A DNA stretch of 64,000 bases, taken from assembly GCA_014763545.1 (NCBI GenBank), contig JACXVD010000001.1:1-64000 (forward strand), written 5' to 3'. Of this stretch, positions 1 through 39,920 are shown piece after piece. Numbering within the stretch: position 1 is the stretch's first letter; each line of letters begins with the position of its first letter. Origin of the DNA: Sphingomonadales bacterium. GTDB taxonomy: Bacteria; Pseudomonadota; Alphaproteobacteria; Sphingomonadales; Sphingomonadaceae. Both the position numbers and the translations under genes were made by a program. The notes under the pieces were generated by a model, which saw nothing but the letters and a program-made list of their open reading frames with translations, was not told where the DNA came from and did not search any database.

Positions 1-51
1 CTCGGCATCGCGGGCGAGGCGGCGCGACAGGTCGGAAGCGTCGCGGGGCAT
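1..51 (-). CDS. Toprim-type primase/DUF7146 protein, 5' end only
   Basis: Only 17 codons are in view, starting with ATG at 51 and running leftward off the window. They read MPRDASDLSRRLARDAE, which matches the start of the gene fragment just upstream (MARRDASELAQRLGRQAE) apart from one extra residue and conservative changes. That start is typical of toprim-domain primase-like proteins encoded by alphaproteobacterial integrative elements. The start codon overlaps the stop of the upstream fragment (TGATG), so translation may be coupled. This is probably the intact copy of a duplicated gene; the toprim domain itself is not visible. Confidence 0.6.
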   Translation of the reverse strand, partial: MPRDASDLSRRLARDAE

Positions 52-359
52 CACCAAATCCCCCGCCGTGCGCCGACGTTATGTTGCGCCCAAGCTGATG
101 ATCGCCCGCAGGGCAAGGACCAACCCTGGGGACGCAACATAACCCGCGCCGCAACATGTTCAGTCCATTTGCCCGCCGCACCCTTGCCGGAATCGGCCCC
201 CTTCAAGCGGACGAACATCGAGCGGCCCGGTGTGTTGCGGACGTCGCCGACCAGCCAGTAGCGGCCCTCGCGATATCCGGCCGAGAGATAGTGCCGGCAC
301 ACAGCCTCGGCCTGTCGTCCAAGGCGCTGTGCCAGTTCGGATGCGTCGCGGCGGGCCAT
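51..359 (-). pseudogene. Truncated N-terminal copy of a toprim-type primase
   Basis: The first 65 or so residues (with YLSAGYREGRYWLVGDVRN and GKGAAGKWT) look like the N-terminal domain of the toprim/DUF7146 proteins of integrative elements, normally around 300 residues or more. After GKWT the similarity stops and the frame runs through a 66-bp segment bounded by inverted repeats to a stop at 51. The ATG at 359 directly abuts the stop codon of the upstream helicase gene. A second start with nearly the same first residues begins at 51, so this is best read as the leftover 5' end of a duplicated or recombined gene. The fragment could still be translated. Confidence 0.65.
78..143. repeat. 11-bp perfect inverted repeats around 44 bp
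   Basis: GTTATGTTGCG (78-88) and CGCAACATAAC (133-143) are exact inverted copies. A shorter related piece, GCAACAT, occurs again at 151-157. The segment sits exactly where the truncated primase copy loses similarity and just before the second primase start, so it could be an operator of the downstream gene, a recombination site or the ends of a tiny inserted sequence. Function is unknown. Confidence 0.7.
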
Positions 360-3300
360 TTACACGGCCTCCCGCTCGGCGATCCGCTGGACGGGATAGC
401 GCTCCATGACCTTCGAAAGCACGGCCGAACCACTCGCGTCCGTTGGCACGAACATGCGGAGCTTCCAGGAGATGATCTCATGGAAAAGGCCGTAAGCGCT
501 GAGGCGCTCGCGCATGGTGTCGGTGAAGCCGGAGAGCTCGATGCGGTTGGCGCCCATGACGCGGACGCGGCGGAGTTGGAGACCCTCGGCGAGGTCGAGG
601 ATGGTCTTGCCGTCTATCAGGGCCGCGAAGGCGTCATCTGGCGCCAGCGTGCTGGTCCCTGTTGCCAGCGCGCCCGCGACCCAGGCGGGCGAAACCTTGC
701 GGCCGATGATGCGCTCGCCGTCGTCGGTCTGGAGCCGGTAGACCCGCGTCGACTCGTTCGGCAGGCGCTTCCAGATCGGCAGCAGCAGGCCGGCGACGAC
801 ATGGATCGCGCTGTCGGAGAAGGCCGGCACGTCGGCGACCTCGCCGGTCCACGCCGATGCGAAGGCCGCGCGGTCGGCTTCGACCCAGTGGCTTTCCGCC
901 ATCATGGTCAGCGAGGCGTGATGCTGCTCCATCGGCCGGATCAGCCGGACGCGGCGTTCGATCTCGCCGTCATCCAACATCAGCGATGACGCCGGCACCT
1001 GAACGGCGGCGCGGCCGGAGCGATCGTTGAGCAGCAGCATCGCCCGACGATCCGACAGTAGGTCCATCGCCTCGTCGAGCGTGACCGGCCGGTTGCGCTT
1101 CCGCTGCGTGATCGTCAGCAGACGGGTTTCCGCACCCGTACTCGGGTGGACGTGAATGGTGCGCCGGTCGGTGACGAAGAAGCTCTCCGCCTTCAGCGTT
1201 TCCAGTCCGACGTCGTAGGTGCCGCTGGCGATGGCGCCCTCGATCTTGGCGTTGAGGAGCTGCTCGAACGCCGTGAAGAGGATGCCTTGCAGTTCGATCG
1301 TCAGGGCGAGCAGGCGGTTGAGGAACGTCGTGATCGGCGGCAGCTCGTCCTTGATGCCATTTGAGTCCATCAGCGAAAGGCCGGTCGCGTCTTCGAACAT
1401 CTGGAGCGTGCAGCCTTCGACCTTGCCGCGCACCAGCAGCAGGTAGAGCTGACGCAGCGCATCGCGGGCATAGTGGCTCTCCAAATTGTCCTCGGGGCGG
1501 AACAGGCCCTGGCCGCCGGTCTGGCGTTGGCCCCGCGTGATCGCGCCCAAAGTGTCGAGACGGCGGGCGATCGTGGAGAGGAAGCGCTTCTCGGCCTTCA
1601 CGTCGGTCGCGATGGGGCGAAAGAGCGGCGGCTGCGCCTGGTTGGTGCGATTGGTGCGGCCGAGGCCCTGAATGGCGGCGTCGGCCTTCCAACCCGGCTC
1701 CAACAGATAGTGGACGCGCAGTCGCTGGTTCCGCGCGGACAGCTCGGCGTGGTAGCTGCGACCTGTGCCGCCCGCGTCGGAGAAGACGAGGATCCGCTTC
1801 ACGTCGTCCATGAAGGCGGCGGTCTCGGCGAGATTGGCCGATCCGGCGCGGCTCTCTACGACAAGCCGGTCGCCTTTGCGCACGATACGACGCGAACGGC
1901 CGGTGACCTCGGCGACGATGTCTGTGCCGAAGCGCTGAACGATCTGGTCGAGCGCGCCTGGAACCGGCGCCAACGACGCCAAGTGCTCGATCAGCCGATC
2001 GCGGCGAGCGACGGCTTCGCGGCTCTCGACGGGCTGGCCGTCGCGATAGACCGGGCGTGACGACAGGTTGCCTTCGGAATCCGTGAACGGCTCGTAGAGC
2101 TGCACCGGGAAGGAATGGGCGAGATAGTCGAGCACATATTCCCTCGGGGTGATGTCGACACGGACGTCGTTCCACTCGTCGGTAGGAATCTCAGCCAGGC
2201 GGCGCTCCATCAGCGCTTCGCCCGTCGAAACGATCTGGATGACGGCGGCATGGCTCTCCGCCAGATCGCGCTCGACGGACCGGATCAGGGTTGGCGTCTT
2301 CATGCTGGTCAGGAGATGACCGAAGAATCGCTGCTTGGCGGATTCGAAGGCCGATCGAGCGGCGGACTTGGCCTGCGCATTGAGCGTGCCCTTGTCGCCG
2401 GTGATGTTGGCGGCCTCCATCGCCGCCGACAGGTTGTTGTGGATGATGGAGAACGCCCCGGCATAGGCGTCATAGATGCGCGTCTGCTCGGGCGTGAGCT
2501 GGTGCTCGATCAGCTCGTATTCGACGCCGTCGTAGGAGAGCGAGCGGGCCGTGTAGAGCCCCAGCGCTCGGAGGTCGCGCGCGAGCACTTCCATGGCCGC
2601 CACGCCGCCGGCCTCGATCGCCTCCACGAACTCGGACCTGGTCGAGAACGGAAAATCCTCGCCGCCCCAGAGACCGAGCCGCTGCGCATAGGCCAGATTG
2701 TGGACCGTGGTCGCGCCGGTAGCGGATACGTAGACCACGCGCGCGTTCGGCAGCGCATGTTGAAGGCGCAGCCCGGCGCGCCCCTGTTGCGAGGCGGCCT
2801 GGTCGCCGCGTTCACCCTTGCCGCCGGCGGCGTTCTGCATGGCGTGGCTCTCGTCGAAAATGATCACTCCATCGAAATCGGAGCCCAACCAATCGACGAT
2901 CTGACGGACGCGCGAAACCTTCTCGCCACGCTCGTCGGAGCGTAGCGTGGCATAGGTGGTGAATAGGACGCCTTCCGGCAGCCGGATCGGCATTCCCTGA
3001 CGGAAGCGCGAGAGCGGCGTCACCAGCAGGCGCTCCATTCCGAGCGCGGACCAGTCGCGTTGCGCGTCCTCGATCAGCTTGTCGGATTTCGAGATCCAGA
3101 CGGCCTTGCGGCGACCCTGCATCCAGTTGTCGAGAATGATGCCGGCGCTCTGACGGCCTTTGCCGGCGCCAGTGCCGTCGCCGAGCATGAAGCCGCGCCG
3201 GAAGCGGACGGCGTTCGGGGCATCCTCGCGCGCGGCGGACATGACGTCGAGGGTCTCGTCCACGGTCCACGATCCGGCGAGATAATCGCCGTGGGCCTCG

Positions 3301-4694
3301 CCGGCATAGATCACCGTCTCGAGCTGGGCGTCGGACAGCAGGCCCTCCATGAGAAGGCGTGCCGGCAAGCGCGGCCGGTAGCTCGGCTTGGGCGGCGCGA
3401 CCGAGGCCATCGCAGCGGACTGCACGAGCTTCGTCGGGTGGGCCTGAGAGCCGGGAATACGGATCGACTGCAATCCGTATTCTTCATAAATCGCATCCGT
3501 GAGCCGGGAACCTTCGGCCGGCTGCCAGTCGATGGTCTCATAGGCGAGATCGACGCCTTCGGGTTCGCCCAGAACGGTGGTCTCGGGCGCCGACGAACGT
3601 GGTCGGGCGAGGTAGCCGCGCACGGTGTGGGGAACTGCGGGACGCACCGTGGCCTGGGCCGCCGTGGATGCGGCGACCGGCAAGCGCGCTGGCATATCGC
3701 GGATCACCCAACCGAGCAGCGTGGCGGCGTCCGGCGCGGTGCCGCGCGAGGTGGCGACGACCGTGGGATCGTCGGCCGGCGACTTGTCGATGACAGTCAG
3801 CCGCGTGTCGGTCGTCGTGCCATGCTTTGCGTAGACCGAGCCATCGACTGCGGCCGAGAACACGACGCGGCCATGCTCCTGAAGCCGGACGAAGGCTTCA
3901 CGCCACGCCGGCGCGTCGGGCGCGAAGCTCGCACCGGTAATCGCCACGAGACGTCCGCCGTCAGCCAGGCGCGCCAGTGCGGAGGCGATATGGCGATAGG
4001 CAGCGTCGGCCATGCGGCCGGAGACGTTCGCCATCACCGAGAACGGCGGGTTCATCAGAACGATGCTCGGCACGATCCCGGCATCGAGATGATCGTTGAT
4101 CTGGGCGGCGTCGAAGCGGGTGACGGGAACGGTCGGAAAGAGGTGGGTGAGAAGACCGGCACGGGCCTCGGCCAGTTCGTTCAAGACCAGCGACGCGCCG
4201 GAGAGCTCGGCGAGAATGGCGAGCAGGCCGGTGCCGGCCGAGGGCTCCAGCACGCGGTCGGCCGGCGTGATCGACGCCGCGGTCGCGGCAGCGAACCCGA
4301 GCGGAATCGGTGTCGAGAACTGCTGAAACGTCTCGCTCTCCTCGGAGCGCCGAGTGTGGGTAGGGAGAAGGCTGGCGATCCTCGCCAGCATCGGCAGTGC
4401 GGCCGCCGGAGAACCGGCTTTGCGCAAAAGCGCCTTTCCGTATTTGCGGAGAAACAGCACCGTCGCCGCCTCGCCGGCGTCGTAGGCGGTCTTCCAATCC
4501 CAGGCGCCAGACGCATCGGAGGCGCCGAAGGCGTCCTTCATAGCCGCGCGCAGCATCGCAGCGTCGATGCGCTGACCTCGGTCGAGAGGGGGGAGAAGAT
4601 GGCCGGCGGCCGCGGCGACAGCGGACCCGGTGTCGGTGGCAACAAGCGGAAACGGCGCAGCCGCGAGGGCCGCGGTGACGGAAAGGTCGTTCAT
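360..4694 (-). CDS. Methyltransferase / strawberry-notch-like helicase fusion
   Basis: A 1444-residue protein. The N-terminal part is a class I SAM-dependent N6-type DNA methyltransferase fold, with motif I EPSAGTG near residues 150-156 and the catalytic NPPF near 215-218. The second half is an SF2 helicase of the strawberry-notch type, with Walker A in GDGTGAGKGR near 505-514 and the DESH box near 614-617. Such fusions are common in alphaproteobacterial integrative elements; their role is unproven, but DNA processing or protection of the element is a fair guess. I chose the ATG at 4694 because an upstream in-frame extension of 53 residues is low-complexity and crosses the hairpin leader. It is transcribed leftward into the primase fragment with no gap. 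Confidence 0.85.
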   Translation of the reverse strand: MNDLSVTAALAAAPFPLVATDTGSAVAAAAGHLLPPLDRGQRIDAAMLRAAMKDAFGASDASGAWDWKTAYDAGEAATVLFLRKYGKALLRKAGSPAAALPMLARIASLLPTHTRRSEESETFQQFSTPIPLGFAAATAASITPADRVLEPSAGTGLLAILAELSGASLVLNELAEARAGLLTHLFPTVPVTRFDAAQINDHLDAGIVPSIVLMNPPFSVMANVSGRMADAAYRHIASALARLADGGRLVAITGASFAPDAPAWREAFVRLQEHGRVVFSAAVDGSVYAKHGTTTDTRLTVIDKSPADDPTVVATSRGTAPDAATLLGWVIRDMPARLPVAASTAAQATVRPAVPHTVRGYLARPRSSAPETTVLGEPEGVDLAYETIDWQPAEGSRLTDAIYEEYGLQSIRIPGSQAHPTKLVQSAAMASVAPPKPSYRPRLPARLLMEGLLSDAQLETVIYAGEAHGDYLAGSWTVDETLDVMSAAREDAPNAVRFRRGFMLGDGTGAGKGRQSAGIILDNWMQGRRKAVWISKSDKLIEDAQRDWSALGMERLLVTPLSRFRQGMPIRLPEGVLFTTYATLRSDERGEKVSRVRQIVDWLGSDFDGVIIFDESHAMQNAAGGKGERGDQAASQQGRAGLRLQHALPNARVVYVSATGATTVHNLAYAQRLGLWGGEDFPFSTRSEFVEAIEAGGVAAMEVLARDLRALGLYTARSLSYDGVEYELIEHQLTPEQTRIYDAYAGAFSIIHNNLSAAMEAANITGDKGTLNAQAKSAARSAFESAKQRFFGHLLTSMKTPTLIRSVERDLAESHAAVIQIVSTGEALMERRLAEIPTDEWNDVRVDITPREYVLDYLAHSFPVQLYEPFTDSEGNLSSRPVYRDGQPVESREAVARRDRLIEHLASLAPVPGALDQIVQRFGTDIVAEVTGRSRRIVRKGDRLVVESRAGSANLAETAAFMDDVKRILVFSDAGGTGRSYHAELSARNQRLRVHYLLEPGWKADAAIQGLGRTNRTNQAQPPLFRPIATDVKAEKRFLSTIARRLDTLGAITRGQRQTGGQGLFRPEDNLESHYARDALRQLYLLLVRGKVEGCTLQMFEDATGLSLMDSNGIKDELPPITTFLNRLLALTIELQGILFTAFEQLLNAKIEGAIASGTYDVGLETLKAESFFVTDRRTIHVHPSTGAETRLLTITQRKRNRPVTLDEAMDLLSDRRAMLLLNDRSGRAAVQVPASSLMLDDGEIERRVRLIRPMEQHHASLTMMAESHWVEADRAAFASAWTGEVADVPAFSDSAIHVVAGLLLPIWKRLPNESTRVYRLQTDDGERIIGRKVSPAWVAGALATGTSTLAPDDAFAALIDGKTILDLAEGLQLRRVRVMGANRIELSGFTDTMRERLSAYGLFHEIISWKLRMFVPTDASGSAVLSKVMERYPVQRIAEREAV

Positions 4695-4718
4695 GGAGGG
4701 AACCTCGGGAGAGCGGGA

Positions 4719-4769
4719 ACGGGGCGAGCCGACCGGCGCTCTCTCTCGACCGCACCGGCTCAAACCCGT
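4719..4769 (-). promoter_or_regulatory. Nested-hairpin leader before the helicase gene
   Basis: Two nested stems can be drawn: ACGGG (4719-4723) with CCCGT (4765-4769), and GAGCCG (4726-4731) with CGGCTC (4756-4761). The structure ends 24 bases before the helicase start codon. It has the same layout as the leaders before parB and ardC in this element, although the primary sequence is more diverged. It may be an RNA control element, or a protein site; the sequence alone does not decide. Confidence 0.5.
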
Positions 4770-4807
4770 CCCGGCCGACCTCTCCCTTTGACTCCAATGG
4801 CTTAGCG

Positions 4808-4833
4808 CGTAGCGTCGTAGCGTCGTAGCGTCG
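4808..4833. repeat. Three tandem copies of CGTAGCGT
   Basis: The octamer CGTAGCGT repeats three times head to tail, followed by CG. It lies between the divergent helicase gene and the small membrane protein gene at 4993, about 40 bp upstream of the helicase leader. It could be a repeated protein-binding site or a slippage product. The rest of the 298-bp gap holds the leader hairpin, a good ribosome site for the rightward gene and nothing else I can name. Confidence 0.8.
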
Positions 4834-4992
4834 CCGCACAAGCCACTCGTCACGGCGCGATCCTCATGTTGACGGGTTTCGGTCGCCGGGCCGCGCGGCT
4901 ACACTTCTCCGATAGTCCCCAAGGCGCGTATCCGTTCGGCCCCGAGGCCTGTCCGCGTCTTTTTGTGAAACGCGGTCGAAAGGAGGCGAACG

Positions 4993-5480: not shown

Positions 5481-7616
5481 TTATTCGGCAGCGATGAGGT
5501 GGGCAGGGTTCTCTTCGTTGTCGGCCGAGCTCTCATCATCGCTGGTGAGGAATTCCGGCAACGCCTCGATCTCACCATCGGTCCCCGCCGCCGACCCGGT
5601 GGCCGGTTCGACCTCGGTGAGGCGCAGCGGCTCGGGTAGCCAGCCGCTGTCGGCTAGCAACCGTTCCGCTTCCTTGGCCATGTCGCCCTTTTTCAGATGG
5701 TCAATGAGTTGCGCGGCCCGCTCGCCAGCCCCTTCGCGCACGGCTTCGAGGATTCGCGGCTTGGTCACGCGGCCGAGATAGTTATCGACGGTAGGCGTCC
5801 AGCCGACTTCAACCATGTCGAGCCGGACCGCGCGGGCCAGACGATCAGCCTGACCGAGGCGGCGTTCGAGGCTGTGCTGCGAGACGCCGGAGCCGCCATA
5901 ACGGTCGACCTTCTCGAACAGCGCGTTGACGCCGTAGCTGACGCAATGGGCGAGCAGCGCCAGACGGCTGGCGTCGTCCAGTCTGTCGAGCCAGTCCCAC
6001 AGCGCCTGATCCTCCTGCGGGATGTCGGTCTTCCAAGCCTCCTGCCGCTCGTTGACAGCCTTGGCGGACGCGCTGTCCTTCAGGTCGGCGGCCTGCACGG
6101 GGAAGAAGATATGCCGGACGCTGGCTTCCAGGCACCCACCGGCGGTCGAGCCGCGCTGGAAAATGTCGGTGACGAGCTTGTGCAGCAGCGCCGTCAGCGC
6201 GACGTGGGGATTGTTCGCCAGCGCGTCGCGCAATGCCAGTGTGCGATGCGCGGTCAGCTCCATCACGAGCCGTTCAGGCAAGGGCTTGATCGTCTCCTCC
6301 TCGTCATCCTCCGCCTCGGTCGATTGGCCGCCAATGGTGATGACGGCCCGCTGCACCGATGGTGCCGCCGGATCGGAACCCTCGGCGCCTTGGCTGGCCT
6401 CACCGCCATCGGTTTCGACAGTCACCGGCGCTTCGTCCTCCGGGCGCACGTAACCGCGATCGATCGAGGGTGAGCCGTCGGCGTCGATGCTGATGAACAC
6501 GCCGGCGCGGGCGATCTCGGTCGGATCATAGATGGCGGCCCGCTGCTCGAAGGCGTTCAGCGCCGTCTCGATCTCGCCAAGCCGCTCGTCCACATCGTCG
6601 GGTAGTTCGTCGGCGCTTTCATAGTCCGCCTCCAGCCTGGCGTATTCGGCGTTGAGGGCCTCGATCGTCGCGCGCTCGTCGTCGGTCAGATCAACCGGCG
6701 TGCCGGTAATCTCGCGCAGTCCGCGCGCGACATCGTAGGGATGGCTGACATCGACCTCGATCCATTTCCAGCCTTCGCCCGCGACCTCGTCGGCGATGGT
6801 CTTCAGCTTCTCCGAAACCAAGTGATCGAGCAGCGCCGGGTCCTGCAGCCATCCGCCATCGTCGGCCTGAAACAGATCGCGCATGATGCTGCCGCCAGCG
6901 GCCTCATAGGCGTCGAGCCCGACGAAGATCGCCCGCTTGTCGGACGCGCGCACGGTGCTTTCTGTCAGCATCCGGCGGATCTGATAGGGTTCCTTGGACC
7001 AGGAGTTGCGGATCGATTCCCAGACCTGCACCTGACGTGCCTCGTCGCCTGAGACGGTAAAGGCCATGAGCTGCTCCAGCGTCATACCGTCCTCGGCATA
7101 GACATCGAGGAGCGACTGCGCGACCGCGGCCAGGCGCAGGCGCTGCTTCACGACGTTGACGGGAATGAAGAAGGCCGCCGCGATGTCCTCCTCGGACTGG
7201 CCCTTCAGGCGCATGTCCTGGAAGGCGCGGAACTGATCGAGGGGATGCAGCGGCGCGCGTTCGATATTCTCGGCGAGCGAATCTTCCTCGGCGAGGATGG
7301 CGGTCGAGGGATCGCGCACCACGCAGGGCACCGGGGCTGTCTTGCCCAGGCGCTTCTGCTTCACCAGAAGCTCCAGCGCTCGGTAGCGGCGGCCGCCGGC
7401 GGGAACCTCGAACATGCCGGTCTCCTGGCCCTCGGCGTCGAGGACGGGGCGGACGTTGAGGCTCTGGATGAGGCCGCGGCGGGCGATCGAGGCCGCAAGG
7501 TCGTCGATCGAGACGCCAGCCTTCACGCGCCGGACGTTTGACTGGCTCAGCACCAGCTTGTTGAAGGGAATGTCGCGCGAGGACGACAGGGTAATCTTCT
7601 GAACGGCAGTAGCCAT
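5481..7616 (-). CDS. Large ParB/RepB-family protein, orphan (no ParA)
   Basis: The 711-residue protein begins with a ParB N-terminal nuclease-like domain: SQSNVRR near 25-31, GGRRYRALELL near 75-85 and ENIERAPLHPLDQFRAF near 115-131, followed by a helix-turn-helix region. The rest is a long acidic linker and a helical C-terminal half without a named domain. Chromosomal and plasmid ParB proteins are usually 280-350 residues, so this is the extended form found in integrative elements. No ParA is next to it. Possible jobs are DNA binding for element maintenance or gene control rather than true partition. It follows a nested-hairpin leader, and GGAG sits between the hairpin and the ATG. Confidence 0.88.
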   Translation of the reverse strand: MATAVQKITLSSSRDIPFNKLVLSQSNVRRVKAGVSIDDLAASIARRGLIQSLNVRPVLDAEGQETGMFEVPAGGRRYRALELLVKQKRLGKTAPVPCVVRDPSTAILAEEDSLAENIERAPLHPLDQFRAFQDMRLKGQSEEDIAAAFFIPVNVVKQRLRLAAVAQSLLDVYAEDGMTLEQLMAFTVSGDEARQVQVWESIRNSWSKEPYQIRRMLTESTVRASDKRAIFVGLDAYEAAGGSIMRDLFQADDGGWLQDPALLDHLVSEKLKTIADEVAGEGWKWIEVDVSHPYDVARGLREITGTPVDLTDDERATIEALNAEYARLEADYESADELPDDVDERLGEIETALNAFEQRAAIYDPTEIARAGVFISIDADGSPSIDRGYVRPEDEAPVTVETDGGEASQGAEGSDPAAPSVQRAVITIGGQSTEAEDDEEETIKPLPERLVMELTAHRTLALRDALANNPHVALTALLHKLVTDIFQRGSTAGGCLEASVRHIFFPVQAADLKDSASAKAVNERQEAWKTDIPQEDQALWDWLDRLDDASRLALLAHCVSYGVNALFEKVDRYGGSGVSQHSLERRLGQADRLARAVRLDMVEVGWTPTVDNYLGRVTKPRILEAVREGAGERAAQLIDHLKKGDMAKEAERLLADSGWLPEPLRLTEVEPATGSAAGTDGEIEALPEFLTSDDESSADNEENPAHLIAAE

Positions 7617-13700: not shown

Positions 13701-15377
13701 ATGAACGCCAAAGCGACCCCCGCCTTGGCATCGCCGGGGCGTGCCGCTCTCTATCTGCGTGTTTCGACCGGCCGGCAGGCCGAACACGATCTTTCGATTC
13801 CAGACCAGCGCCGTCAACTTCAAGCCTATTGCCAAGCGAAAGGCATCGCCGTCGTCGCCGAGTTTGTCGAGCCGGGTGCATCGGCGACAGACGACCGGCG
13901 ACCTGAGTTTCAGCGGATGATGGACGCCGGAGCACAAAAGCCCGCGCCGTTCGACTTCATCATCGTGCATTCCTTCTCGCGCTTCTTTCGCGATCAGTTT
14001 CAGCTCGAATTCTATGTCCGGCGACTGGCGAAGAACGGTATCCGCCTCACGTCCATCACGCAGGATCTCGGCGATGATCCGATGAGCGTGATGATGCGTC
14101 AGATCATGGCATTGTTCGATGAATACCAGTCGAAAGAGAATGCCAAGCACACGCTCCGGGCCATGCGGGAGAACGCCCGTCAGGGCTATTGGAACGGCTC
14201 GCGGCCGCCCTTCGGCTACAAAATCGTAGCGGCCGAGCAACGAGGCGCGAGGACCAAAAAGAAGATCGAGCCTGATCCGGCCCAGGTTGAGACGGTCCAG
14301 CTTATGTTCCGCCTCGCACGGATCGGCACTGACGACGGTCCAATGGGGTCGCGCCAGATCGCCGATTATCTGAACATGCGTGGTATCCGGACGCAGACCG
14401 GCGGGCGCTGGGGCGTCGGGGCGGTGCACCAAATCCTGACCAGGGAGACCTACATCGGCCGCCATCGCTTCAACGTCTCGGGGAAGCGTAAAGGAGAGCA
14501 GAAGTCCGAAGACGAAATCGTCGACGTGACGGTCGAGCCGATCATCGACGAGGAGGAGTTCGCTGAGGTGCAGGCGGTGATGCGCTCTCGCAGCCCGCAA
14601 CTGAAGGCCCCGCGGTTCGTGACGGCCGGGACGCTCCTCGGTGGCGTGTGCTTCTGTGCCGACTGCGGGGGAGCGATGACGCTCCGTACCTCCGGCAAGG
14701 GCGACCAATACCGCTACTACACCTGCTGCACGACGGCACGGCAGGGGAAGACGGCGTGCCGCGGCCGCACGATCCCGATGGACGAGCTGGATACGATTGT
14801 TGTGTCGCATCTGGAGGAGCGACTTCTTGCGCCCGAGCGGCTTGAGGAGCTGCTCGCCGGCCTGCTCAAGCGCAGGGAGGAACACGCCGGACGCCTGAAG
14901 GGGCGGATCGCCGAGCTGAGGAAGCAGGCTGCGGACGCGGAAGCCAAGCTGACTCGGCTGTATGAGGCCATTGAGAATGGTCTCGCTGAAATGGACGATT
15001 CCAACCTCAAGGGACGGATTGTCGAGTTGAAGCGGATCCGTGATTCGGCGCGGGCCGATGCGGACCGGGCCGAAAACAGGGGAGAGGGCGACGACAATCG
15101 AGTGACGCCGGAGCTGCTGCGTCGGTTCGGCATCGAGGCTCGTAAGAAGATCAGGGATCGAGAGGGCGGTTTCCGGCGCCATCATCTCCAGGCGCTAGTT
15201 CAGCGGGTGGAGGTCGGAGCCGACGAAATTCGGATCAGGGGATCGAAGCCAAGGCTCCTCCAGACGCTTGTGGCGTCTGGAGGAAACTATGGAGTGGAAA
15301 CTGCGGCGCACGGCGTTCGCAGTTTCGTTCCGAATTGGCTCCCCGAGTTGGATTCGAACCAACGACCAAGTGATTAA
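13701..15377 (+). CDS. Large serine recombinase (site-specific integrase)
   Basis: The 558-residue protein has a resolvase domain with catalytic serine S22 in YLRVSTGRQ and the conserved SRFFRD, a recombinase domain (RPPFGYK, then IADYLNMRGI), a zinc ribbon (CFCADCGG...YTCC...ACRGR) and a coiled-coil region near 390-430. Large serine recombinases integrate and excise elements with no need for host factors. The last 13 codons, including DSNQRPSD, are read from the antisense of the tRNA-Asn 3' end, so the stop codon is supplied by the tRNA gene. GGGAGG lies before the ATG. Confidence 0.92.
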   Translation: MNAKATPALASPGRAALYLRVSTGRQAEHDLSIPDQRRQLQAYCQAKGIAVVAEFVEPGASATDDRRPEFQRMMDAGAQKPAPFDFIIVHSFSRFFRDQFQLEFYVRRLAKNGIRLTSITQDLGDDPMSVMMRQIMALFDEYQSKENAKHTLRAMRENARQGYWNGSRPPFGYKIVAAEQRGARTKKKIEPDPAQVETVQLMFRLARIGTDDGPMGSRQIADYLNMRGIRTQTGGRWGVGAVHQILTRETYIGRHRFNVSGKRKGEQKSEDEIVDVTVEPIIDEEEFAEVQAVMRSRSPQLKAPRFVTAGTLLGGVCFCADCGGAMTLRTSGKGDQYRYYTCCTTARQGKTACRGRTIPMDELDTIVVSHLEERLLAPERLEELLAGLLKRREEHAGRLKGRIAELRKQAADAEAKLTRLYEAIENGLAEMDDSNLKGRIVELKRIRDSARADADRAENRGEGDDNRVTPELLRRFGIEARKKIRDREGGFRRHHLQALVQRVEVGADEIRIRGSKPRLLQTLVASGGNYGVETAAHGVRSFVPNWLPELDSNQRPSD

Positions 15378-15410
15378 CAGTCACCTACTCTACCGCTGAG
15401 CTATCGGGGA
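15336..15410 (-). tRNA. tRNA-Asn(GTT), element insertion site
   Basis: The minus strand folds as a full tRNA: acceptor TCCCCGA with TCGGGGA, discriminator G and encoded CCA at 15336-15338, anticodon GTT at 15376-15378 in the loop CTGTTAA, and T-loop GGTTCGAATCC. The recombinase gene on the other strand overlaps its 3' 42 bases, which marks this end as the attachment site. Confidence 0.95.
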
Positions 15411-19563: not shown

Positions 19564-22500
19564 TCAGCCCTTCGCAGCGCGCTTGACGATCCCGCTCAGC
19601 CCCTTGGTCAGCTGGAACAGGCCGTTGAGGCGGCTTTGCGGGTCGCCCCACGCGCGGTCGATCACCAGCTTCATGTCGGGGCGCAGGCGCGCGGTGCCTT
19701 TGAGCCGTTCGACATAGGCGATCAGCCCGGCAGGGTCGGGGAACTCGTCCTTGTGGAAGCTCACCAGCGTGCCGCGCGCGCCCACATCGACCTTGGCGAT
19801 ATTGGCCGCGATGGCCTGGTGCTTGATCTCGATCAGCCGCACGAGATTGGCGGTGGGCTGGGGCAGGGGGCCGAAGCGGTCGATCATCTCGGCGGCCAGC
19901 GCCTCGATCTCGTCCTTGCCCTTGGCGTCGTTCAAGCGGCGGTAGAGGGCCATGCGCACCGCGAGGTCGGGGACGTAATCCTCGGGGATCATGATCGGCG
20001 CATCGACAGTGATCTGCGGCGACAGCGTGTCGCGCTGGATCCCCGAACCGCCGGCCTTGGCCTCGAGGATCGCGTCTTCCAGCATCGACTGGTAGAGTTC
20101 GAAGCCGACTTCGCGGATATGGCCCGACTGTTCGTCGCCCAGCAAATTCCCCGCACCGCGAATGTCGAGATCGTGGCTGGCGAGCTGGAAACCGGCGCCC
20201 AGCCCGTCGAGGTCGCCCAGCACCTTGAGCCGCTTTTCCGCCACCTCGCTCAATTGCTGGTCGCGCGGGTGGGTGAGGTAGGCATAGGCGCGCAGTTTCG
20301 AACGACCGACGCGGCCGCGCAGCTGGTAGAGCTGGGCAAGGCCGAACCGGTCGGCGCGGTGGATGATGATGGTGTTGGCGCTGGGGATGTCGAGCCCGCT
20401 TTCGACGATGGTGGTCGACAGCAGCACTTCGTATTTCTTCTCGTAGAAGGCGGCCATGCGCTCTTCCACTTCGCCGGGCGACATCTGGCCGTGGGCGGAG
20501 ATGAATTTCACCTCGGGCACGTGTTCGTGCAGCCAGTCTTCCACTTCGGCCATGTCGGCAATGCGGGGCACGACGACGAAGCTTTGCCCGCCGCGGTGGT
20601 GTTCGCGCAGCAGGGCCTCGCGCATCACCATGTCGTCCCACTCCATCACATAGGTCCGCACTGCCAGCCGGTCGACCGGCGGGGTCTGGATGGTGGACAG
20701 CTCGCGCAGCCCGCTCATCGCCATCTGCAGCGTGCGCGGGATCGGCGTGGCGGTGAGGGTCAGCACGTGGACATCGGCCCGCAATTGCTTGAGCCGTTCC
20801 TTGTGGGTGACGCCGAAACGCTGTTCCTCGTCGACGATCACCAGCCCGAGATCGCGGAACCTGGTCGTCTTCGACAGGATCGCGTGGGTGCCGATGACGA
20901 TGTCGACCGTTCCGGCCTCCAGCCCTTCGCGCGTTTCCTTCATCTCGCGGTCGGGGACGAGGCGGCTGAGGCGACCGACCTTGAGCGGGAAGCCGCCGAA
21001 ACGCTGGCTGAAATTCTCGAAATGCTGGCGCGCGAGAAGGGTGGTGGGGGCGACCACCGCGACCTGCTTGCCTGCCATTGCCGCGACGAAGGCGGCGCGC
21101 AGGGCGACCTCGGTCTTGCCGAAGCCGACATCGCCGCAGACCAGCCGGTCCATCGGGCGGCCCTGGCCCAAGTCGCCCAGCACATCCTCGATCGCGCGGT
21201 CCTGGTCGTCGGTTTCCTGCCACGGGAAACGCTCGACGAATTGCGGGTAGCTCGAGGCTTCGGGTTCCAGCGCCGGGGCCTGTTTGAGCGCGCGTTCGGC
21301 GGCGGTGCGCATCAGTTCGCCTGCGATCTCGCGGATGCGTTCCTTGAGCCGCGCGCGGCGTTTCTGCCAGGCCTCGCCGCCCAGCCGGTCGAGCATCACC
21401 GCATGTTCGGACGATCCGTAGCGGCTGAGCACGTCGATATTTTCGACCGGGATGTAGAGTTTGTCGCCGCCGGCATATTCCAGCATCACGCAATCGTGCT
21501 GGCTTTTGCCCACCGTGATCGGCTCGAGCCCTAGGTACTTGCCGATGCCGTGTTCCATATGGACCACGAGGTCGCCCGCGTTGAGTGCGGAGAGTTCGGC
21601 GAGGAAGGCGTCGGAATCCTTCTTGCGTTTCTTGCGGCGGACCAGCCGGTCGCCGAGCAGGTCCTGCTCGGTCAGCAGTTCCATCTGATCGTTGGCGAAG
21701 CCGCTTTCCAGCGGCAGCACCATCGCCACCGGCGTGCCCCTGGCAGACAGGCCGAGCGCTTCCTGCCAGCTGTCCGCCAGCTTGGGTTCCGCCCCGGCTT
21801 CGGCGAGGATCGAGGAAATGCGCGCCCGGCTGCCCCTGGAATAGGTTGCCAGCAGCGGGCGCTTGCCGGCCTTGCCCAGCGCCTTCAGATAATCGGCGGC
21901 GGCGGCATAGATATTGTCGCCCGAACCGCTGGAAATCCTGGCGCGTTCGGGGGTGAAGTCGCGGCTCGATGCAAAGCCGAAGTCGAGCACCTGGGCCGAT
22001 GCCGGCTCGGCGAAGATGCTGGCGCGGTGGATCGGCCATGCGGCCTGCTGGGCGCTCCATTCCTCGCCCGAGAGATACAGCCCGTCGGCGGGCAGCGGGC
22101 GATAGGAACCCGCGGCACCGCCGGATTGTTCGCTGCGCTGCTGGTGGTAATCGGCAATGTCGCCCAGCCGTTCCTCCACCGCGCCGATCGCGCCGCTGTC
22201 GACCACCAGCACATCGCCCGGCGAGAGATGGTCGAACAGCGTCGCCAGCCGCTCCTCGAACAGCGGCAGCCAATGTTCCATCCCGGCAAGCCGCCGTCCG
22301 TCGCTGACTGCCTGGTAGAGCGGATCGCCGGTGGCGGTCGCGCCGAACATCTCGCGATAGCGGCTGCGGAAGCGCTTGATGCTTTCCTCGTCCAGCAGCG
22401 CTTCACTGGCGGGCAGCAGCAAATGCGATGGGAGGATACCGGTGCTCATCTGCGTGCCCGGGTCGAACAGGCGCAGGCTTTCCAGCTCGTCCCCGAAGAA

Positions 22501-23049
22501 ATCGAGCCGCAGGCCCTGTTCGAGGCCCGAAGGGAAGATGTCGAAGATGCTGCCGCGCACGGCATATTCGCCGTGATCGACCACCGTATCGGTGCGGCTG
22601 TAGCCTTGCCGCTGCAGCAGGGCGGACAGGCTCTGGTGGCCGATCTCGGTCCCGGGCCGGAAGTCGCGCACCGATTCGCGGATGCGGAACGGGGTCAGCA
22701 CGCGCTGCAGCACCGCGTTGGCGGTGGTGACGAGCAGCTGCGATCCCTGCTTACCTGCCTGCAACCGGTGCAGCGCAGCCAGCCGCCGCGCGCTGATCGA
22801 CAGGGCAGGGCTGGCCCGGTCGTAGGGCAGGCAGTCCCACGCCGGGAAGGTGATGACCTCCAGTTCCGGGGCGAAGAATTGCGCGGCGTCGGCCACCGCC
22901 TGCATCGCCGCCTCGTCCGGTGCGATGAACACCGCCCGCCCGGTGGCTGTGCGGGCAATATCGGCCAGCACCAGCGGCTGCGCCCCGCGCGCCAGCGCGG
23001 CGAGGGTCAGCGGAGTTTTGGCGGCAAGGATCTTCGAAATATCGGGCAT
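19564..23049 (-). CDS. mfd: Transcription-repair coupling factor Mfd
   Basis: The 1161-residue protein removes RNA polymerase stalled at lesions and recruits nucleotide excision repair. It has the UvrB-like N-terminal part, the CarD-like RNA polymerase binding domain (GDLVVHMEHGIGKYLGLE), then a RecG-like helicase with Walker A CGDVGFGKTE, the DEEQRFG box and TATPIPRT, and the TRCF C-terminal domain. Length fits the family (about 1150). It lies 118 bp downstream of sdhE in the same direction; that gap has no clear signal. Confidence 0.97.
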   Translation of the reverse strand: MPDISKILAAKTPLTLAALARGAQPLVLADIARTATGRAVFIAPDEAAMQAVADAAQFFAPELEVITFPAWDCLPYDRASPALSISARRLAALHRLQAGKQGSQLLVTTANAVLQRVLTPFRIRESVRDFRPGTEIGHQSLSALLQRQGYSRTDTVVDHGEYAVRGSIFDIFPSGLEQGLRLDFFGDELESLRLFDPGTQMSTGILPSHLLLPASEALLDEESIKRFRSRYREMFGATATGDPLYQAVSDGRRLAGMEHWLPLFEERLATLFDHLSPGDVLVVDSGAIGAVEERLGDIADYHQQRSEQSGGAAGSYRPLPADGLYLSGEEWSAQQAAWPIHRASIFAEPASAQVLDFGFASSRDFTPERARISSGSGDNIYAAAADYLKALGKAGKRPLLATYSRGSRARISSILAEAGAEPKLADSWQEALGLSARGTPVAMVLPLESGFANDQMELLTEQDLLGDRLVRRKKRKKDSDAFLAELSALNAGDLVVHMEHGIGKYLGLEPITVGKSQHDCVMLEYAGGDKLYIPVENIDVLSRYGSSEHAVMLDRLGGEAWQKRRARLKERIREIAGELMRTAAERALKQAPALEPEASSYPQFVERFPWQETDDQDRAIEDVLGDLGQGRPMDRLVCGDVGFGKTEVALRAAFVAAMAGKQVAVVAPTTLLARQHFENFSQRFGGFPLKVGRLSRLVPDREMKETREGLEAGTVDIVIGTHAILSKTTRFRDLGLVIVDEEQRFGVTHKERLKQLRADVHVLTLTATPIPRTLQMAMSGLRELSTIQTPPVDRLAVRTYVMEWDDMVMREALLREHHRGGQSFVVVPRIADMAEVEDWLHEHVPEVKFISAHGQMSPGEVEERMAAFYEKKYEVLLSTTIVESGLDIPSANTIIIHRADRFGLAQLYQLRGRVGRSKLRAYAYLTHPRDQQLSEVAEKRLKVLGDLDGLGAGFQLASHDLDIRGAGNLLGDEQSGHIREVGFELYQSMLEDAILEAKAGGSGIQRDTLSPQITVDAPIMIPEDYVPDLAVRMALYRRLNDAKGKDEIEALAAEMIDRFGPLPQPTANLVRLIEIKHQAIAANIAKVDVGARGTLVSFHKDEFPDPAGLIAYVERLKGTARLRPDMKLVIDRAWGDPQSRLNGLFQLTKGLSGIVKRAAKG

Positions 23050-37722: not shown

Positions 37723-37949
37723 GCGCGGAAAATATCCATTTTCTCCATCGTGCGCAAAAGTTTGCGGCGGCCTGTTGATAACTTGCCTTCACCCCGCCAG
37801 CGCACGCAGCCGGGGGCGGTGCAGCCGGGGAGAGGTTGAGACACGGCCCTTGCCATGCTTGACCTGAGGGAACGCGTCCGCAAGGGACCGCGGGCAGCGA
37901 TTCGCCCGGCGAACGCCGTGCCCGACGAATGAGAGCAGGAGCCCGGAAT

Positions 37950-39920
37950 ATGAGCCTCGACCCGCAGCGCCTGGCGCCCATGGCCAACGCGATTCGCGCC
38001 CTGTCGATGGATGCTGTCCAGGCCGCCAATTCGGGGCACCCCGGCATGCCGATGGGCATGGCCGATGTGGCGACCGTGCTGTGGTCGAAATATCTGAAGT
38101 TCGACCCTGCCGCGCCCAAATGGCCCGACCGCGACCGTTTCGTGCTGTCCGCCGGCCACGGTTCGATGCTGATCTATTCGCTGCTCCACCTGTCGGGCTA
38201 CGCCTCGCCGACGATGGAGGACATCCGCAATTTCCGCCAGCTGGGCAGCGTTTGCGCCGGGCACCCGGAAAACTTCCTGATCCCCGGTGTCGAATGCACC
38301 ACCGGCCCGCTGGGCCAGGGGCTGGCGATGGCGGTGGGCATGGCGATGGCCGAACGCCATCTCAACGCCGTGTTCGGTGACGGGCTGGTCGACCACCGTA
38401 CATGGGTCGTCGCGGGTGACGGCTGCCTGATGGAAGGCATCAACCACGAAGCGATCGGGCTGGCCGGACACCTCAAGCTCGGGCGCATGGTCGTGCTGTG
38501 GGACGACAACCGCATCACGATCGACGGCGATACCGACCTGTCCACCAGCGAAGACATTGCCGCCCGCTATGAAGCGACAGGCTGGCATGTCACCAGCTGC
38601 GACGGACACGATTTCGCCGACATAGCCCGCGCGATCGACGAAGCGGTGGCGGACGAACGCCCCTCGCTGGTCGCCTGCCGGACGATCATCGGCAAGGGCG
38701 CACCCAACAAGCAGGGCGGGCATAATGTCCACGGTGCCCCGCTCGGTGGCGACGAGATTGCCGCGGCGCGCGAATATCTCGGGTGGGACGCCGCACCGTT
38801 CGAAGTGCCCGAGGCGATCCTGTCCGACTGGCGCACGACCGGTGAGCGCGGCGCGAGCGCGCATGCGGAATGGAACAGCCGCCTCGCCGCCGCGCCTGAC
38901 GCGCAGGAATTCTCGCGCCGGATGGCGGGCGACCTGCCCGATGGCGAACAGGCGGCTGCTGCCTTCGACGCATGGCTGGGCGAATCGCAGAAGGTCGCAA
39001 CGCGCAAGGCGTCCGAATTGGCGCTGGGCGTGCTGACCCCGCTGGTGCCGGAAATGGTCGGCGGCTCGGCCGATCTTACCGGATCGAACAACACCAAGAC
39101 CAAGGCGACCCCGCCATTCTCGGCCGACGATTATTCGGGCCGCTATGTCTATTACGGCATCCGCGAATTCGGCATGGCTGCGGCGATGAACGGGATGGCG
39201 CTACACGGCGGCATCATCCCCTACGGCGGGACCTTCCTGGTCTTCTCCGATTATTGCCGCAACGCCGTGCGGCTGTCGGCGCTGCAGCACCAGCGGGTGG
39301 TCTATGTCTTCACCCACGACAGCATCGGGCTGGGCGAGGACGGGCCGACCCACCAGCCGGTCGAGCATGTCATGTCGCTGCGCATGATCCCCAACCTCAA
39401 TGTCTATCGCCCGGCGGACATTATCGAGACCGCCGAATGCTGGAATCTCGCGCTGCAAAGCCGCGAAACTCCGTCGGTCCTCGCGCTGACGCGGCAGAAC
39501 CTGCCGCAGCTGCGCAGCAGCGGCGAGATGTTGAGCGCCAAGGGTGCTTATCGCCTGCAAAGCGCAGGCGCAGAGCGGAAGGTGGTGCTCGTCGCGACGG
39601 GTTCCGAAGTCGAGCTGGCGGTCAATGTGCGCGCCGCGCTGGAGGCGCAGGGGATCGGTGCCGATGTCGTCTCCATGCCTTGCGCAGAGCTGTTTCTGAA
39701 GCAGGATGCCGCCTACCGCGCCGATGTGCTGCCGCACGACACGCTCAAGGTATCGATCGAGGCGGGCGTGACGATGGGCTGGGAACGGTTCACCGGCACC
39801 GACGGGATCAATATCGGGATCGACAGTTTCGGAGCCTCTGCGCCGGCAGAGGTATTGTTCGAGCATTTCGGCCTCACGGTTGACAAGATCGTGCCGCAGA
39901 TCACTGAAAAACTGGCATAA
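37950..39920 (+). CDS. tkt: Transketolase
   Basis: The 656-residue thiamine-diphosphate enzyme moves two-carbon units in the pentose phosphate pathway. It has [10 protein letters not shown] near 30-39, [23 protein letters not shown], the ThDP motif [13 protein letters not shown], and the C-terminal [17 protein letters not shown] region with catalytic histidine and glutamate. The ATG at 37950 follows GCAGGAG. It opens a run with gap, pgk and fba, 23 bp before gap. Confidence 0.96.

Follow-up and report, generated by a model that had tools for sequence, protein, structure and literature searches.

A likely RIT-type transposon carrying site-altered copies of its toprim target gene in both ends, at the left edge of a Sphingomonadales contig

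Results

Interrupted toprim gene at the contig edge

The window analyzed here is the 64,000-nucleotide stretch at the start of contig JACXVD010000001.1 of a Sphingomonadales bacterium (contig G000:C63 of our collection, 102,770 bases), so that its position 1 is base 1 of the contig. At its left edge, two toprim starts follow one another on the minus strand, with ATG codons at positions 359 and 51 (Table 1), in agreement with the original prediction. The open reading frame from 359 begins with MARRDASELAQRL and comprises 102 codons with the stop at 53–51, and the second start, MPRDASDLSRRLARDAE, is open to the contig end, with 17 codons visible. It had also been claimed that the upstream copy loses its similarity after GKWT, ends exactly where the second one begins, and is left as a leader peptide. 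All of this holds: the upstream copy is a normal toprim up to codon 66, followed by a 36-codon unrelated tail; the leader stop and the second ATG overlap as TGATG; and 66 host codons are kept in the 102-codon leader ORF, which has no Pfam or NCBIfam match. The strawberry-notch family helicase gene lies upstream in the operon, its stop codon abutting the toprim start at 359.

As the contig begins at window base 1, the second toprim gene cannot be followed in this genome, and the element-specific sequence in the window comprises only 51 nt of toprim and about 110 nt of the leader. The visible residues of the second start have 13–15 out of 17 positions in common with 15 element-borne toprim copies described below, and 8–13 (mostly 8–10) in common with 76 host toprim copies.

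Table 1. Features of the window, in order of position.
Feature	Coordinates	Strand	Basis and remarks
Element-borne toprim, first 17 codons	1–51	−	Residue sharing with element copies; contig end within gene
Chimeric leader ORF (66 host codons + 36 element-end codons)	51–359	−	TGA overlaps next ATG
Purine-rich GGCGGGGG, candidate ribosome-binding site	60–67	−	Sequence reading; 8 nt ahead of second start
Element terminal sequence ACATGTTGCGGCGCGGGTTATGTTGCG ... CGCAACATAAC	78–159	−	Resembles ends of ordinary RIT elements
Putative 6-bp crossover core GACTGA	160–165	−	Sequence reading, aligned junctions
5′ fragment of interrupted host toprim, codons 1–66, ends GKWT	162–359	−	Homologous loci
Strawberry-notch family helicase gene	360–4853	−	Pfam AAA_34, E 1.7e-123; Helicase_C_4, E 8.8e-97
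ParB-domain protein gene	5481–7616	−	Pfam ParB_N, E 6.1e-07; neighboring island or plasmid-type backbone
Large serine recombinase gene	13701–15377	+	Pfam Resolvase, Recombinase, Zn_ribbon_recom
tRNA-Asn	15336–15410	−	ARAGORN; overlaps serine recombinase gene
Mfd	19564–23049		
Transketolase	37929–39920		

The ParB-domain and strawberry-notch genes lie to the left of the serine recombinase and tRNA-Asn, and housekeeping genes lie to the right. Since the serine recombinase stands beside tRNA-Asn and is followed by the genes for Mfd and transketolase, the toprim operon is probably part of an island integrated at tRNA-Asn, with its probable boundary at positions 13701–15410 and the large serine recombinase as its probable integrase. 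The RIT-type element discussed below would then probably sit inside this island.

Host homologues of the 5′ fragment

A search with the 66-residue 5′ piece returned a long list of loci, of which 80 were kept for comparison. In 78 of them the sequence continues at codon 66 into a complete toprim, with Lys in the GKW motif in 77 loci and His in one (L057), and in the remaining two (L061 and L073) it gives way at codon 66 to an unrelated tail, as in the window. Both the carried and the target gene encode DUF7146 followed by Toprim_3 (PF23639, E 2.2e-38, and PF13362, E 4.9e-22, in the L092 copy).

The genome of the window contains a second strawberry-notch/toprim pair (G000:C19:38692-40519; loci L002, L096, and L140), which is uninterrupted and has AIGNWVD at the target site. 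The host toprim L057, from Rhodomicrobium, has AGHWTD at the site, and possibly derives from an element copy or is an allele with natural resistance; a RitA relative was not found in its genome.

The same junction in other genomes

A similarity search with window positions 1–480 yielded plasmids whose alignments span both starts. By blastn of positions 1–165, the leader and the toprim start were found together over at least 80% of the query in six of the 72,556 plasmid records of PLSDB, and ten records matched this query at all, most of the main ones at two or four places each. This recurrence across plasmid records argues that the junction is not due to chance. Including the window, 13 insertions were collected: seven in six plasmids, three in Rhodoplanes elegans, and one each in L073, G236, and the window.

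A complete second toprim was found in Mesorhizobium NZP2077, Rhodobacter xanthinilyticus (two loci), Haematobacter massiliensis, Aminobacter aminovorans, and Sagittula MA-2, and the plasmids of these five organisms share one gene order, namely, the second toprim, three tyrosine recombinases, an inverted toprim, and the 3′ part of the interrupted toprim. In the relatives with the junction the second gene is a complete toprim of 343–350 aa, so the intact second copy anticipated by the original prediction does exist. The predicted replacement of the old gene, in contrast, is not borne out in relatives, as the old 3′ part is still present there at the other end of the element. Mesorhizobium amorphae contains a decayed version of the element. 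Cargo genes are located inside the elements of Haematobacter (ureC, ureB, and nikR) and Aminobacter (genes for a potassium channel and an SLC13 permease).

The draft genome of R. elegans (G579) contains three toprim 5′ fragments, each 109 bases from a contig end (locus L061 is an R. elegans contig stopping inside the repeat), three 3′ remnants, each with the repeat end and spacer ahead of it, and a 4.8-kb core contig in which a toprim, the recombinase trio, and an inverted toprim follow one another; the RitA of this contig and its Haematobacter counterpart are 65% identical. The natural reading of these pieces is three copies of one element. The occurrence of the repeat twice per element also explains where the present contig ends. 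Near-identical elements occur in Sagittula p4 and R. xanthinilyticus pEJ01, and together with the three R. elegans insertions they point, at the level of sequence comparison, to movement of the element.

In the genome of the window, neither a second element toprim nor a recombinase trio was found, only three single integrases on three contigs and the C19 toprim. Comparison of window positions 1–360 with 197 relatives gave matches in 29, with the whole query covered only in the source genome itself; the stronger partial matches cover the ordinary 5′ part (about 160–359). No RitA relative was found among the viral contigs. In the class as a whole, RitA is present at E ≤ 1e-60 in two of 385 genomes, with no toprim beside the trio in the stretches examined, and the junction pattern is present in one of 385.

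Structure of the element

Each end of the element consists, from the outside inward, of a short recombinase-type terminal sequence, its outermost motif RIT-like, and a full-length toprim directed inward; the middle part consists of three adjacent tyrosine recombinase genes, in some cases together with cargo. The genes of the trio overlap, e.g., by 4 and 8 bp in L090 and by 4 and 14 bp in L092. The Phage_integrase domain was detected in all six trio proteins tested, with XerC/XerD-like domains, and an element recombinase is 33% identical to a trio-borne protein on pHG1. From core to spacer, the element measures 5.6 kb in L091, L100, and L101, 8.9 kb in L092, and 8.7 kb in L093.

According to self-comparison, the inverted repeats comprise 1167 bp (99.83% identity) in L091, 1173 bp (99.83%) in L092, 1122 bp (99.91%) in L093, 1139 bp (100%) in L100, and 1138 bp (99.91%) in L101, and thus five of the six complete elements have terminal repeats of 1.12–1.17 kb instead of short ones (about 34 bp). 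In the sixth, L090, a 1090-bp repeat is 78.6% identical overall, with the outer 400 bp identical.

The host toprim is cut after codon 66 at a 6-bp core, represented in relatives by GACCGA, CACCGA, TACGGA, and other variants. All eight clean right junctions (L091, L092, L093, L100, L101, and three in R. elegans) have a 20-bp palindromic spacer, TTATGT...ACATAA, between the element and the host core, on the side facing the 3′ remnant. When the flanks are rejoined, an open toprim of 323–344 aa is restored in all five cleanly resolved cases. The 3′ part of the old toprim is retained beyond the element in L091, L092, L093, L100, L101, and R. elegans, and these remnants are mostly still open, so that decay marking the old gene as dispensable is scarce.

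The element is found in both orientations. The trio and the host gene point the same way in L090, L091, and L092 and opposite ways in L093, L100, and L101; pEJ01 of R. xanthinilyticus has one insertion of each orientation. In the cases with an imperfectly palindromic spacer, its strand varies among insertions: when reversed, the L093 spacer differs from that of L092 at one base, and one of the R. elegans spacers is the exact reverse complement of the other two. Such strand differences are expected from a near-palindromic attachment site with two usable cores.

Leader and its junction with the element toprim

In all 11 ends analyzed, the leader stop lies 120 or 123 nt from the target codon, a multiple of three, and overlaps the start of the element toprim, as TGATG in all ends except L091, which has GTGA. 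The leader tail retains a YVA..MLR...QHN pattern, with HVA in some ends, and this pattern is the translation of the recombinase site in one frame. Since ten of the 11 ends have another stop-free frame as well, the openness of the leader frame alone is weak evidence. The overlap would allow translational coupling of the leader and the element toprim.

Evolution of the element toprims

In a tree of 62 toprims, all 14 element copies fall on one side of a branch with support 99/100, the bootstrap being not fully settled. For seven of the 55 host loci no ORF with the site motif was obtained, and the frameshifted right copy of L091 was omitted. The clade of element toprims lies within the diversity of the host gene, and in it the left and right copies stand together or nearly so. 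The left and right copies are 98.5–100% identical in L092, L093, L100, and L101, and different elements diverge by as much as about 35% at the DNA level. The end copies in L090 and R. elegans are most alike at the outer end and less so toward the inside, which suggests that the copies are homogenized from the tips.

The element toprims are under purifying selection, with pN/pS of 0.18–0.41 between different elements (near-identical L100/L101 pairs left out; many of the dS values are near saturation). In some elements one copy is damaged: a frameshift affects the L091 copy distal to the operon, the operon-side copy being open, and one end copy in R. elegans carries a stop. Retention of two intact and identical copies is not universal, since those of L090 agree fully only in the outer 400 bp.

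Altered target site

The element-borne toprims differ from their targets at the residue where the element inserts. Out of 15 element copies, 13 have His, two have Arg, and none has Lys at this position (AG(H/R)WTD). The interrupted genes have AGK(W/F) in 13 of 13 sites hit, with AAR beside the core in the DNA. In uninterrupted host toprims from a sample not selected on the site, Lys was observed in 20 of 22 parsed genes, counted among the rows listed for 30 loci, where the others did not match the expression or were noise. In a selected sample, 76 of 78 uninterrupted loci were parsed and Lys was observed in 75, L057 with its His being the exception; this count is biased, since one of the six search peptides contained the site.

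With His or Arg in place of Lys, the element would be barred from inserting into its own copy, i.e., would have immunity. As the element toprims form one clade, the altered codon possibly reflects just one or two old inherited changes.

Discussion

The main outcome of this study is that the left edge of the contig probably represents the left end (window positions 1–162, at codon 66 of the host toprim) of a RIT-type transposon whose ends repair the gene that it enters and contain a modified version of the target site. It is assigned as a left end because the leader, the stop overlap, the outer motif, and the first 17 codons all match the elements in other genomes, and its interior is presumably the same as theirs.

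The structure of the junctions suggests how such an element could operate. The recombinases would integrate the element from a circular form, using a nearly palindromic attachment site with a 6-bp core on each side of the 20-bp spacer, and either core would pair with the target core. If either core can pair, the element can enter in either orientation, and with a toprim in each end, the end landing behind the interrupted 5′ half would always supply a complete gene. The supplied toprim, overlapping the stop of the chimeric leader, would be translationally coupled to it, and the His or Arg codon that takes the place of Lys next to the core would spare the element's own copy. The circular intermediate and transposition, as well as expression of the element toprim and functional rescue by it, are predicted here from sequence comparison.

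We considered several other explanations. The original prediction attributed the double start to recombination that had swapped in a new primase allele. Its first half stands, as a new toprim allele did come in, but the event appears to be a precise insertion of a mobile element and not allelic recombination. Two related 5′ ends in tandem, the second one intact in relatives, are what homologous recombination importing a second allele and leaving the old 5′ end would produce; however, the break in the old gene of the relatives is always at the same point, with the 3′ part across the recombinase trio, rejoining of the flanks gives back the open frame, and there are two copies of the incoming allele, inverted relative to each other, so that plain allelic replacement, contradicted already in the complete plasmids, is very improbable. 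Even less credit can be given to an assembly artefact or a chimeric contig end: the feature does lie within the last 360 bp of a draft contig, but the same junction is found inside complete circular plasmids, and the R. elegans contigs likewise break off in the repeat, which is to be expected of a multi-copy repeat. Tandem duplication of the toprim 5′ end by slippage or unequal crossing over, suggested by the likeness of the two 5′ ends, can be practically dismissed, as the starts belong to different lineages, the second one resembling the element copies more closely than most host genes, and the sequence between them matches RIT ends.

A more serious competitor, though an unlikely one, is a RIT element in which toprim is a mere passenger of long repeats, with no selection for repair of the target. 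RIT-type elements with other neighbors do exist, and one of the two toprim copies is sometimes broken. On the other hand, the carried gene is the target gene in every case found, its start coincides exactly with the leader stop in each end read, and purifying selection, the changed target site, and the mostly near-identical pair of copies are not what would be expected of a passenger.

Returning to the transposon that heals its target, we lean, by a modest margin of belief, toward its fuller version, that of a natural self-rescuing transposon. Both repeats would encode a complete, site-altered, and coupled replacement of the target, insertion would be free of orientation due to the palindromic site, and the element would thereby achieve low-cost occupancy of a core gene of plasmids and ICEs, with self-exclusion and with end copies homogenized from the tips inward. 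If this is right, the element ends do two jobs, serving both as recombination sites and as spare parts for the broken gene, which would explain how a transposon can specialize in a conserved backbone gene of conjugative elements. It would also predict a role of long inverted repeats in concerted evolution and give a simple assay of site and orientation choice by recombinase trios. The repeats would further account for a class of contig breaks, namely, draft contigs ending inside a toprim start.

Comparison with known systems

RIT elements have been described in plasmid pHG1 (PMC2864759), and the available text of a 2012 study presents their mobility as still undemonstrated (PMC3414803). The RIT elements of Cupriavidus (PMC3414803, PMC2864759) and the toprim element both have three adjacent overlapping tyrosine recombinase genes (about 415, 318, and 331 aa) and a similar terminal motif, TATGTTGCGGC...TTATGT, and both insert inside genes. 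For RIT elements, RitA is reported to have two core-binding domains, and RitC an extra C-terminal helix (PMC8138268). The differences concern the ends. The RIT repeats comprise 34 bp in the accessible part of one report (PMC10214605), or 25–92 bp in our comparison elements with placeable ends, as opposed to about 1.1 kb in the toprim element; and ordinary RITs are reported to inactivate radC or IS66 tnpA (PMC2864759, in excerpt), whereas the toprim element has a full copy of the target per end. Our searches of the open-access literature, to the extent of its available text, yielded only RIT elements with short repeats, often inactivating the target, and did not reveal a RIT element described with toprim or a copy of its target gene in the ends.

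Other systems with several tyrosine recombinases acting together and high site specificity are the strand-biased circularizing elements (SE), GInts, and Tn554 (PMC10214605, PMC5385486); SE also resembles the toprim element in having inverted repeats with a 6-bp spacer. These systems differ from it in gene content, and target-gene copies in their ends are not described in the accessible parts of the same sources.

Among our comparison elements, toprim was absent from L102, L103, L163, L165, L166, L167, and L125, with short repeats of 25–92 bp, and no clear repeat was found in L105. A general rule of RITs carrying their own targets in the ends was considered and is not established. In L104 and L167, the RIT interrupts a gene identified by eye as IS21 istA. 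There, an inverted istA 5′ half is present in both flanks, outside the RIT ends and not inside them, with 558 bp at 98.4% identity in L104 (5319–9739) and 91 bp at 81% in L167 (5758–9269). A RIT-like trio in Candidatus Megaera (L164, 5285–10139) lies between 237-bp inverted repeats of 97.9% identity. In a Sphingobium plasmid (L187, 30–11786), two recombinase trios split a strawberry-notch gene, and nothing indicates that the gene is restored, in contrast to the toprim case. In Sagittula p4 (L100/L190), a second, different trio adjoins the toprim element at the expected place of the strawberry-notch gene.

Prophages and ICEs entering tRNA genes, prfC, and the like carry host-gene sequence and thus spare the gene; they restore one end via a short segment of identity, in one orientation. 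The toprim element, in contrast, supplies the whole gene at each end, and both orientations occur. The engineered toxin-antidote and cleave-and-rescue elements likewise disrupt their target and supply a copy without the target site; according to the available excerpts they are synthetic, nuclease-based, and designed for animals, and thus provide an analogy only (PMC7951863, PMC7046741). If our interpretation is correct, it predicts that such site-altered rescue designs have a natural counterpart.
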